64,000 bases of DNA from Clostridia bacterium (GTDB lineage: Bacteria > Bacillota > Clostridia > Lachnospirales > Lachnospiraceae). The notes beneath the pieces were generated by a model. It searched no databases, was not told the DNA's origin, and worked only from the letters and a program-made list of their open reading frames with translations. This document shows, in pieces, positions 45,990 through 52,159 of the stretch. The stretch lies in NCBI GenBank assembly GCA_003249225.1, contig QKJQ01000001.1:1-64000 (forward strand), read 5' to 3'. The translations under genes were made by a program, and so were the position numbers. Each line of letters begins with the position of its first letter. Positions within the stretch are counted from its first letter, which is position 1.

Positions 45990-46040
45990 CATTCTTCCAT
46001 GTCATTCTTCCATGTCATTCTTATATGTCATTCTATCATT
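45990..46040. repeat. 13-bp tandem repeat between the EFR1 and SdpI genes
   Basis: Four copies of CATTCTTCCATGT-like units run head to tail (two exact, two with three changes or a shortened end) in the 119-base gap between two minus-strand genes. Confidence 0.9.
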
Positions 46041-46075
46041 TCATAATTGAGTTATTGATTCTGCTGCCATTGTTT

Positions 46076-47342: not shown

Positions 47343-47394
47343 TTTGTCAGCATCTCACTTTCTGTTCCATCGTATTCATTACTTCCTGTATCAA

Positions 47395-47448
47395 TTCACA
47401 CTTTCTTCACGTAAGTACCACGACTGCTTCACAATTTCGTTCTATACT
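47395..47448 (+). promoter_or_regulatory. Phased TTCAC repeat array and -10 of small-RNA element A
   Basis: TTCACA at 47395, TTCACG at 47406, ACCACG at 47417 and TTCACA at 47428 start exactly 11 bases apart in sequence. Nine bases after the last is TATACTAAG (47443). The same spacing recurs at element B. The layout resembles tandem response-regulator sites that replace a -35. Confidence 0.7.
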
Positions 47449-47454
47449 AAGTTC

Positions 47455-47618
47455 ATCAAAGAAAACAGAACAGAAAAACTTGCAAACAAACCCATCAAGG
47501 AACTTGATCTTCAAAGAAACACAAATAAGCTTACTTTCTTAAATTTAAATAGATTTCATAATACTCCCCTTAAAGAAGCGTTTTGTTTACCACCTCCCCG
47601 GTAAACAAAGCGCTTCCT
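47455..47618 (+). ncRNA. Candidate small RNA, element A
   Basis: The 5' end is placed about seven bases after TATACT and the 3' end after the hairpin 47576-47615. The 41-base block 47547-47587 matches element B at 40 positions and includes CTCCCC (47564-47569). The closing hairpin pairs AAGCGTTTTGTTTACC with GGTAAACAAAGCGCTT, 16 base pairs, with a CCTCCCC-containing loop. One pair is U-G when read on the plus strand but A-C on the minus strand, which favours plus-strand transcription. No conserved reading frame exists across the two copies. The tail after the hairpin is only moderately T-rich, so the 3' end is uncertain. Confidence 0.65.
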
Positions 47619-47635
47619 CCCTTTACAGGGAAGAT

Positions 47636-48091
47636 TTAGTGCCAATTATTTTGTTCGATCCGCTGCCGCAATTCATCTTCCTGGTCTTTGTTGCCCCAAA
47701 GAATCACTGCGCACTCTTTACGATTCATCTTTTCTAAAGCACTGAATCTGTGATTCCCATCGGTAAGAACAAGCCTTCCCTCATCGATTTGTGCAATAAG
47801 CGGTGGCATATCCCATTCATCAAGCTTTTCAATAATTTTGTCGACTTTGTGGTTGAACCATTTCACTTCATTCGCATCTGTAATATCTTTCTCAATTCGT
47901 ACCGTTGACAGACTGGTAAGCGGAAGCATCATAGGCCCAAAATAAACCCGCTCCTCTAAAAGAAGTCCATCCGCAAATCCGTAGTTAGGATTTGGCATAT
48001 CTTTGTCTTCATAACGAAGAAAGGCCTGAATCCATTCTTTTAGCTTATTGTTCACCGCATATTGTTTTGCTTCTGTTAATGTGTAGTTCAT
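47636..48091 (-). CDS. ParB-like nuclease-domain protein
   Basis: The 151-residue protein starts behind GGGGATAGG. DEGRLVLTDGNHRFSALEKM is the signature of the ParB/Srx-like domain (DGxHR), with the preceding VDKIIEKLDEWDMPPLIAQI helix-strand. There is no HTH domain, so it is not a chromosome-partitioning ParB; small stand-alone members are of unknown function, some with nucleotide-binding or nuclease activity. It lies between small-RNA elements A and B, with element A ending 18 bases past its stop on the opposite strand. Confidence 0.75.
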   Translation of the reverse strand: MNYTLTEAKQYAVNNKLKEWIQAFLRYEDKDMPNPNYGFADGLLLEERVYFGPMMLPLTSLSTVRIEKDITDANEVKWFNHKVDKIIEKLDEWDMPPLIAQIDEGRLVLTDGNHRFSALEKMNRKECAVILWGNKDQEDELRQRIEQNNWH

Positions 48092-48280
48092 AAACCTATC
48101 CCCAATTCAAAATTTATGATTCAGCTGCCTATGATATTGGTTTCAAAAGGTATCTTGTTAACAACATCATACTATTTACACTATACCACAATAATGATTC
48201 CTTTGGAAATATTTGATTCTAAAAGCAATAGCAAAATGATAACACTAAAAAATTGTGTTTTTTATACTGAGACAAATCAA

Positions 48281-48334
48281 TTCACAAATTATTCACTTTA
48301 CCGCCACTTCTGCTTCACATTTTCTCATTATACT
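48281..48334 (+). promoter_or_regulatory. Phased TTCAC repeat array and -10 of small-RNA element B
   Basis: TTCACA at 48281, TTCACT at 48292, GCCACT at 48303 and TTCACA at 48314 again start 11 bases apart, and TATACTAAG starts at 48329. Every spacing equals that of element A although most spacer bases differ. Confidence 0.72.
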
Positions 48335-48340
48335 AAGCAT

Positions 48341-48457
48341 AGAAACAAAAGAAACACATCAAGAAGCCTACTACCTAAAATTGAAATAGATTTCATAATA
48401 CTCCCCTTAAAAAAGCGTTTTGTTCTCCTTCCCCCCGGTGAACAAAGCGCTTTTTAC
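48341..48457 (+). ncRNA. Candidate small RNA, element B
   Basis: The predicted transcript is about 115 bases. It contains the block 48384-48424 shared with element A, with CTCCCC at 48401-48406, and ends in a hairpin AAAAAGCGTTTTGTTC / GAACAAAGCGCTTTTT (48410-48425 with 48440-48455). The loop is C-rich (six C at 48431-48436) and a run of five T closes it, so this is a good intrinsic terminator on the plus strand. The same U-G pair as in element A is kept. A 120-codon frame crosses it but in a different phase from the one in element A, so I do not call a protein. Confidence 0.72.
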
Positions 48458-48692
48458 TTGCTTTTACATAAAATGTGATTTTTCTGTTGTTTTTCGCAAT
48501 AATCGTCTATACTATTTCTATATAATTCCATTTTCCATTCTGACTGACCCTGGTCCTTCGTGCTATGTTCAGGTCTCAATTTAAAGTCAAACAAAATTCT
48601 ACTGACATTCAATAAATTTAAACATTTATGCAAGATTTTGTAATCTAATGCGAATAGATAGTTATAGATCGTTGGGGGGAGAAGAAAACTTT

Positions 48693-50558: not shown

Positions 50559-51764
50559 TCATTTTATCCTGACAAACTTCTTCTTCCCGATTTTTAACAC
50601 ATCACCACTTTGCAGCAAATCCTTTAGAGCATCTTCTGTTATCTTCTCCTGGTTTCGCTGTACTCCATTCTGTCTAAGCATACGCAGGAACTCAGCTTTG
50701 CTTTTTACAAGCTCCATTTCGAGCAATTCCGGAATACAATCTGCCAGCGTTTTCTGCTCCTTTCCCAGAAGAAGTTCCGGGATGTCCTCCGGAATTGCCT
50801 TTTTACCAAAGGCTTCCCTGTAGTACTCTTCTGCTTTGTCCAGAGCTTCCATTGAATGGTAAAGTTTTGTTATGATCCTTGCCAATTTTAACTTACAGTC
50901 TCTTGGATTCATACCTGTCTCCAAATCTTTTCTGATCTGGTCGATGGTATCCGGGTGTTCATCGGTTGCAAGTTCAAAGTAGCGAAGGATCAGATTGTCC
51001 GGAATCTCCATGACCTTTTTGAACATTACTTCTGCCGGTTCATTGACCCCGATGTAATTACCAAGACTTTTGCTCATCTTCTCGATGCCGTCAAGTCCCT
51101 CCAGGATCGGCATGAAGAGTGCGACCTGCTGCTCTTTGTTCATTGCTTTTTGCAATGTTCTTCCCATCAGAATATTAAAGGTCTGGTCTGTACCGCCAAG
51201 TTCAAGATCTGCTTCAATGGCTATGGAATCGTAAGCCTGCATCAATGGGTAGAAGAACTCATGAATTCCAATGGGTACACCATTTTTGTAACGGTTCTGA
51301 AAATCATCGCGCTCCAGCATTCTGGCTACCGTTGTAATAGACGCTAATCGTATTACATCTTCAAAATTTAACTTTGACAGCCACTCGCTGTTGAATCTGA
51401 CAACGGTCTTTTCTTTATCGAGCACTTTAAAGATCTGGTCACAATAGGTCAGCGCATTCTCTTTGACCTGCTCATCAGATAATGCAATCCGTCCTTTTGC
51501 TTTACCGGTCGGATCTCCGATCTTGCCCGTAAAATCCCCGATTATGATGACTGCTTTGTGACCTAATTCCTGCATTTGTCTAATCTTTCGCAGAACAACT
51601 GCATGTCCCAGATGAATATCCGGAGCAGAAGGATCAAGCCCCAGTTTTATAATCAGCGGTCTTTTTTCCTTTTCCGTTTTTTTAAGCTTCTCGAGCAATT
51701 CCTCTTCATTCACGCACTGATGTGCTCCTTTGCAGATAATTCTTATTTGTTCTTCTGGTTTCAT
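50559..51764 (-). CDS. tyrS: Tyrosyl-tRNA synthetase
   Basis: The 401-residue class I enzyme has the ATP motif [11 protein letters not shown] (HIGH-type His-Leu-Gly-His at 51-54) and KMSKSLGN near residue 230. The C-terminal 60 residues form the S4-like RNA-binding domain ([20 protein letters not shown], then the [15 protein letters not shown] end). The spacing and lengths match the TyrZ/TyrRZ type. It attaches Tyr to tRNA-Tyr. Expression is controlled by a T-box leader with Tyr specifier at 51873-52159. The start at 51764 has AAGGA. Confidence 0.95.
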
Positions 51765-51872: not shown

Positions 51873-52159
51873 AAAAAACTCCCGTCCCTTTGTTACCAAA
51901 AGGACGAGAGTACAATCTCGTGTTACCACCTAAAGTTCACAGATAACTCACGTTACCTGTCTCATCAGGTACGGCAAAAGCGATACCCTGGCACTTGATC
52001 ACGGTGTGCTCTCCGTCGCAGCCTACTTTATGTTCGGTGCGCAGCTCAAAGAGGTATTCACACTTTCTATCCATGAGCCTCTCATCAACCGGCGTCTTTC
52101 TGTTTGGAATCAAAAATGCTACTCTTTCTTATCATAGCCTTTTTCAATCTATTTAGTTA
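51873..52159 (-). promoter_or_regulatory. T-box riboswitch (tRNA-Tyr) upstream of tyrS
   Basis: In minus-strand order: an AGAAAGAGTAG stem I entry, an AG-bulge region, then GAATACC, giving the Tyr specifier UAC at 52056-52054. Next comes AGGTGGTAACACG (51931-51919), the T-box motif, with UGGU for the ACCA end of tRNA-Tyr. The antiterminator ACGAGA/TCTCGT competes with a terminator at 51878-51911 (ACTCTCGTCC with GGACGGGAGT) followed by TTTTTT. Uncharged tRNA-Tyr would favour read-through into tyrS. Confidence 0.93.

Follow-up and report, generated by a model that had tools for sequence, protein, structure and literature searches.

The question raised by this locus is what two similar elements, placed on either side of a 151-aa ORF in the analysed stretch of a Clostridia bacterium contig (QKJQ01000001.1; the whole stretch of 64,000 nt is here called the window), encode. 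We consider it likely (probability about 0.75) that both are small-RNA genes, whose products would cover the ribosome-landing site and the start codon of mRNAs; transcription, the regulator, the targets and the signal are inferred. The initial annotation had proposed two paralogous plus-strand small RNAs, and this is supported as the best reading, with transcription inferred. It had missed the complementarity of the shared 28-mer to a ribosome-binding site and AUG, the nature of the repeat array as an 11-bp-phased box, and the further copies and the spread of the design through the family.

The twin elements and their copies

Each element is made up of a box, a -10, a variable spacer, the 28-mer and a hairpin (47395-47616 and 48281-48455; Table 1). 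The repeat search of the window detected the conserved blocks as 97-nt copies of 85% identity whose starts lie 837 apart, together with 62-nt copies of 76% identity (spacing 886) for the upstream arrays, and TATACTAAG stands directly after both arrays. The 28 bases are identical between the copies, 40 of 41 positions match once the block is extended, and both copies close with hairpins (fold z values -5.9 and -5.6). This twin layout had been described before, and it held, as did the observation that the block is crossed in different phases, by our count, by the plus-strand ORFs at 47344-47604 and 48116-48478. The 26-base core was detected at 6 places in this genome with no more than 3 mismatches and the reversed-pattern control gave 0, so the twin similarity goes beyond chance. 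The boxes are the only window sites with no more than 6 mismatches to the family box described below. Neither Pfam (E<=1) nor NCBIfam (E<=0.001) gave a match for the ORF between the twins, and its previous name, "ParB-like", found no support in these searches.

Table 1. Coordinates of the parts of the twin elements and of the ORF between them (window numbering)
Feature	Position	Strand	Remarks
Putative regulator box, copy 1	47395..47433	+	TTCAC / TTCAC / (N)CCAC / TTCACA, 11-bp spacing; 0 mismatches to family box
-10 TATACT, copy 1	47443..47448	+	9 bp past last repeat; inferred transcription start near 47455
Conserved segment, copy 1	47547..47574	+	anti-AUG (UUUCAUAAUA) and anti-SD (CUCCCC); core kept in 10 copies; unpaired in fold
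Terminator-like hairpin, copy 1	47575..47616	+	17-nt arms, pyrimidine tail CUUCCUCCCUUU; covariation
151-aa ORF between the twins	47636..48091	-	bystander; no family match found
Putative regulator box, copy 2	48281..48319	+	0 mismatches to family box
-10 TATACT, copy 2	48329..48334	+	inferred start near 48341
Conserved anti-AUG/anti-SD segment, copy 2	48384..48411	+	same letters as copy 1
Terminator hairpin, copy 2	48410..48455	+	U run; fold and covariation

We detected seven copies in this genome (G000; 4.24 Mb, 42 contigs): two in the window, three on contig C28 and one each on C4 and C35. G003, another genome of this genus, has three more, of which a tandem pair adjoins an ORF similar to the 151-aa ORF of the window; neither the RNA nor the box was matched in G001 or G002, also of this genus. 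The box, the -10, the conserved segment and the terminator recur as a unit in these 7 and 3 copies. The surroundings were listed for nine of the ten, which lie between long ORFs with mostly different neighbours. One of the C28 copies (C28c; L231 1469-5584, G000:C28) is found between two ORFs with a similar N-terminus (by eye), one of which carries Ig-like repeats and an HtrA-type trypsin domain; this small RNA is divergent from the second flanking gene.

The letters given in the core AAATA-ATTTCATA-TACTCCCCT do not vary across the alignment of the 10 copies. The reverse complement of this core, AGGGGAGTA-TATGAAAT, reads as a Shine-Dalgarno sequence separated by four bases from AUG and the codons after it (AGGGGAG-N4-AUGAAA). 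By folding, the core is mostly unpaired ahead of the terminator; the copy 2 segment is part-paired in the minimum-energy fold and unpaired in the centroid. The terminator stem covaries across the 10 copies, with both-side changes in 5 of 12 pairs. One stem pair is U-G in 5 copies and C-G in the other 5, so the RNA is the plus strand, and the initial statement that the U-G pair is valid for plus-strand RNA only held. The doubt expressed there, that only one of the two copies ends in a good terminator, stands: the tail of copy 1 is not a clean U run.

The promoter box and its spread in the family

The box was characterized by aligning 17 promoters from 10 genomes at the -10, which placed the repeats at -48, -37, -26 and -15 with the consensus TTCAC / TTCAC / NNCAN / TTCACA, nine bases and TATAMT. 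No more than 3 mismatches to the box were found in 12 of the 17 promoters and 4-9 in the other five, G134 being the worst; the C4-type copies (one each in G000 and G003), with weak promoter matrix scores of 4.3 and 11.1, were left out of the alignment. An array of four repeats spaced at 11 bp that ends 9 bp ahead of TATACT is the layout of a response regulator of the OmpR type, which is inferred from sequence alone, and the box indicates the type of the regulator, not its name.

The exact TTCACA-N9-TATACT occurs 6 times in G000, always at small-RNA genes, and 3 times in G003, once away from such genes. The promoter matrix put the RNA promoters at the top in 667 kb, 14 of them being the training set; leave-one-out scores were 22-49 for 13 promoters and 3.2 for G134. 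The best G000 site after the RNA promoters, in the searched sequence only, drives a secreted subtilase. Nine box sites were counted in G000, and the 7 that were placed correspond to six RNA genes and the subtilase.

Among the 397 searched genomes of the family, which we infer from its size (358 genus labels) and its class to be the Lachnospiraceae, the box alone (<=3 mismatches) matched 234 genomes and 206 of 334 genera. The reversed box matched one genome only, G210, by our reading of the table. An off-register control, whose pattern carried an extra base between repeats three and four, matched 6 of 397 genomes, this genome not included, and its own reversed control 1. The box-only search is a blind test of the upstream repeats, unlike the picks made by eye that are described below.

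The linkage of the box to anti-start motifs was shown at 90 box sites, which are not a random sample of the matches. An anti-AUG motif lies 15-170 nt downstream at 69 of them, with an anti-SD motif too at 64, while the frequencies were 3.5% and 1.3% at random positions of the same loci (n=14048), 2.1% and 1.0% at other -10s (n=96), and no anti-start motif was found at the off-register sites (0 of 6). The motif was defined once 30 sites had been seen, which gave 23 and 22; the 60 sites fetched later gave 46 and 42. At the 69 anti-AUG sites, the sixth base past the -10 is C in 35 and T in 32, and the seventh is A in 45.

Two narrower searches gave fewer matches. The R1 search over the family detected 5 of 397 genomes including this one; among the other four, TCACA-N9-TATACTAAG is present only in G134, where the array is partly out of register, and no box was seen in the R1 matches of G379, G114 and G226. 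A further pattern was matched at 19 places, spread over 17 of the 397 genomes, whereas its reversed control gave 0 by our reading; of the 19 places, 10 were judged convincing by eye (8 outside this genome) and 9 not. The upstream 60 bases were in view during the judging, so the upstream repeats of those 8 are no blind test. One place judged unconvincing, L158, scores 20.5 with the promoter matrix and may be real. The R2 model has no base pairs and was not used in searching. As a separate observation, a second box-like promoter of matrix score 14.1 lies past the first small RNA in G197 (L154 1671-1727) and is followed by CUACUCCCACCC and a hairpin; the same CUACUCCCACCCUAUUAUACGC stretch is found after the L247 box in another genome.

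RNA forms and proteins downstream of the box

By simple rules, slightly different from those of the motif counts above, the 90 sites fall into 54 with a hairpin between the anti-AUG and the anti-SD, 16 with the two close together and 20 with neither, the assignments of L271, L281 and L308 looking doubtful; the window copies have the two close together. In 34 of the 54 hairpin forms, chosen for TTTCAT-type motifs and a predicted hairpin, both-side changes were detected in 4 of 5 pairs, one pair being GC in 15, CG in 9, AU in 3, UA in 2, UG in 2 and broken in 3. The invariance of UUUUCAU in these 34 is by construction and the pair counts are biased to pairing; the pair-type changes are not. Downstream of the hairpin the sequence is rich in pyrimidines (9 or more of 12 bases in 47 of 53), although only 23 of 53 have four T in a row; it is thus possible that the hairpin is a terminator with the anti-SD in its tail, which remains an inference. 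Two further sites, L271 and L300, have a C-rich stretch (UCUCCCCCC) after the box, no UUUUCAU and then a hairpin, and might be another RNA type of the same regulon.

A bolder reading, which we regard as equally likely to be right or wrong, is that in this family one OmpR-type regulator makes batteries of start-blocking small RNAs plus HtrA, a regulon previously unknown. The two hairpin flanks of the commonest form, the second being the 3' tail, would clamp the start region as a three-way junction, and the window would hold the form without the insertion, similar to the streptococcal csRNAs. If the clamp form is true, placing the anti-SD in a terminator tail would be a new arrangement, in which a single hairpin serves both to end the RNA and to pair.

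At the 20 box sites without an anti-start class, 11 proteins were identified. HtrA was the commonest, with five HtrA-type proteases, L241, L331, L335 and L336 (Pfam trypsin and PDZ) and L330, assigned by NCBIfam similarity below the cut-off. The box was also found ahead of VTC-domain proteins (L242, L329, L332), an OmpR-type response regulator (L328), an ApbE-like protein (L246, below the cut-off) and a choline-binding-repeat protein (L333). In the L328 regulator the stretch NLEVYVSFLRKKL resembles the CiaR recognition helix VVEVYVSKVRKKL (PMC3091779), 9 of 13. Such recognition helices are common in this regulator family.

Proposed mechanism, known systems and rival explanations

In the mechanism that we propose, an OmpR/PhoB-type response regulator, inferred from the box, would bind the four 11-bp repeats and switch on transcription from about 7 nt past TATACT. 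Ending at the hairpin, this short RNA would pair through its middle with the Shine-Dalgarno and start codon of the target and block ribosome loading, as inferred from the complementarity; several similar copies may raise the dose. Throughout the family this box would drive HtrA-type proteases and further genes besides related anti-start RNAs, and from this we infer that stress of the envelope or of secretion is the probable signal, in parallel with streptococcal CiaR and with LisR of Listeria. The regulator gene was not found in this genome.

No strong target was detected: the 18-mer complement at <=3 mismatches matches the seven copies and three other sites. Eight G000 gene starts were evaluated by duplex energy with 200 shuffled seeds each; since matching was the ground on which they were chosen, the comparison does not test targeting. 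C29:360466 (sugar-binding lipoprotein) and C29:408944 (HutI-like) reached -23.8 kcal/mol each and beat all shuffles (minimum -20.3 and -21.1), C5:48086 and C35:163818 were slightly better than the shuffles, and the other four were not. The G003 matches also include a sugar-binding lipoprotein, with 25% identity to that of G000 over 208 residues (E 9e-10). The two lipoproteins are relatives and hardly the same gene, and we claim no target.

By analogy, the element resembles the CiaR-dependent csRNAs of streptococci (RF02379) in its working, but it falls below the csRNA cut-off and its box differs. The csRNAs likewise have several similar copies per genome and an unpaired anti-SD and anti-AUG before the terminator, the 5' hairpin being optional (PMC3091779, PMC8186281), and their OmpR-family regulator, a type that is inferred for the window element, acts through direct repeats separated by N5 (11-bp spacing), ten bases before the -10. 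The csRNA box, however, is TTTAAG in two repeats, against TTCAC in four repeats here; the base before the likely start is mainly C in csRNAs and C or T about equally here; and many family members have a hairpin between the anti-AUG and the anti-SD, unlike csRNAs. Among the csRNA criteria, the anti-SD and anti-AUG in an unpaired region are met (copy 2 being part-paired in the minimum-energy fold only), and so is the 3' terminator stem-loop (copy 1 without a clean U run). The CiaR promoter, TTTAAG-N5-TTTAAG ten bases before the -10, is not, the TTCAC repeats having similar spacing. The Rfam cut-off of 57 bits was not reached by any copy or related locus tested. At a relaxed threshold, weak full-length csRNA matches were obtained for copy 2 (20.1 bits) and the G003 tandem copies (18.0 and 23.3), and related loci matched in 3 of 9 (L161 43.3, L162 34.7, L169 27.1) and 1 of 20 (L260 44.1); copy 1 had no match at E<=10. 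Compared by eye only with the csRNA nonamer [A/C]UCCUAAA[A/C], copy 2 has ACCUAAAA and copy 1 UUCUUAAAU. The htrA gene is also driven by CiaR, and current evidence places it under LisRK as well as CiaRH (PMC12826053); according to a 2010 paper, CiaRH is found in streptococci and is apparently absent from other bacteria.

The LisRK-dependent LhrC1-5 of Listeria (RF00616) are likewise multi-copy and, as proposed here, under two-component control, with UCCC contacts to the target mRNA and a relation to envelope stress (PMC4132741). Unlike the window element, LhrC is not known to have an anti-AUG design and has its LisR-responsive element upstream of -53 (PMC4132741), and the LhrC cut-off of 110 bits was not met (16.1, 21.6 and 22.6 bits for window and G003 copies). 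No Rfam family was found that describes the element, and no description of such RNAs in this family was found in the open-licence literature searched, including PMC5171806, which provides a genome-wide start map for C. phytofermentans, a Lachnospiraceae.

The elements appear to be part of a large, undescribed set of start-blocking genes sharing one switch across the family, with expression and the regulator inferred. If the family is the Lachnospiraceae, as suggested by its size, its members are dominant gut anaerobes, and their small-RNA control is hardly charted. A box that predicts start-blocking RNAs and HtrA, in over half of the sampled genomes, provides a handle on RNA start and pairing. 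If true, this would be the third multi-copy sRNA family under a two-component regulator, beside CiaR/csRNA and LisR/LhrC, raising the question of whether the wiring has arisen repeatedly or is old.

The rival that survives best, though we consider it unlikely, is that the box belongs to the phosphate regulator PhoP and that the RNAs answer phosphate starvation. Several pst-type promoters share the layout by eye: in those indexed, TTTACA is repeated every 11 (or 22-23) bp and N9 precedes the -10. With the sRNA matrix, two pst-type upstream regions of G003 gave p values of 0.016, this one being in exact register, and 0.041. The sRNA promoter of G094 reads TTCACA/TTAACA/TACACC/TACACA, and three box-driven genes encode VTC-domain proteins; VTC proteins are linked to polyphosphate. 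Against this, the other 8 of 10 pst-type loci gave p 0.08-0.48 (0.079 for this genome's own), the pst boxes read TTTACA and the sRNA boxes mostly TTCACA, and HtrA is the commonest of the proteins identified under the box. Three of the 10 loci (G001, G002, G389) are uncertain as pst genes. PhoP was rejected as the regulator, with the same geometry and different letters and the matrix negative at 8 of 10 loci and borderline at two, and is kept as a rival. Separately, we observed that the phosphate-binding protein of the pst operon in this genome (L061 5629-7437, G000:C29) is a single 602-aa ORF with two tandem PstS-type domains.

It is very unlikely that the minus strand is the functional one and that a small peptide or leader is translated from AGGGGAG-N4-ATG as a true ribosome-binding site and start. 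The complement does make a good start-site sequence, and the copy 2 hairpin has T runs on both sides. However, the minus-strand frame of the window copies ends after MKSI, the promoter is oriented along the plus strand, the U-G/C-G pair fits plus-strand RNA only, and the box predicts the anti-start motif in one orientation. Equally remote is the view that the copies are a dispersed repeat, mobile or terminator-like, that regulates nothing, which would account for multi-copy, intergenic elements with two in tandem in G003, but not readily for spacers that differ in length, hairpins that covary, and a promoter and start-complement that recur across genera with different hairpins.

Two further features were noted in the window. 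At gathering score, Rfam detected only a T-box leader there (RF00230, 104 bits; 51897-52144, minus strand), which is ordinary, and the ORF downstream of it (50559-51764, minus strand) is, by our reading, tyrosyl-tRNA-synthetase-like. At 46000-46044, a 13-base unit (TGTCATTCT...) is present in three imperfect tandem copies.
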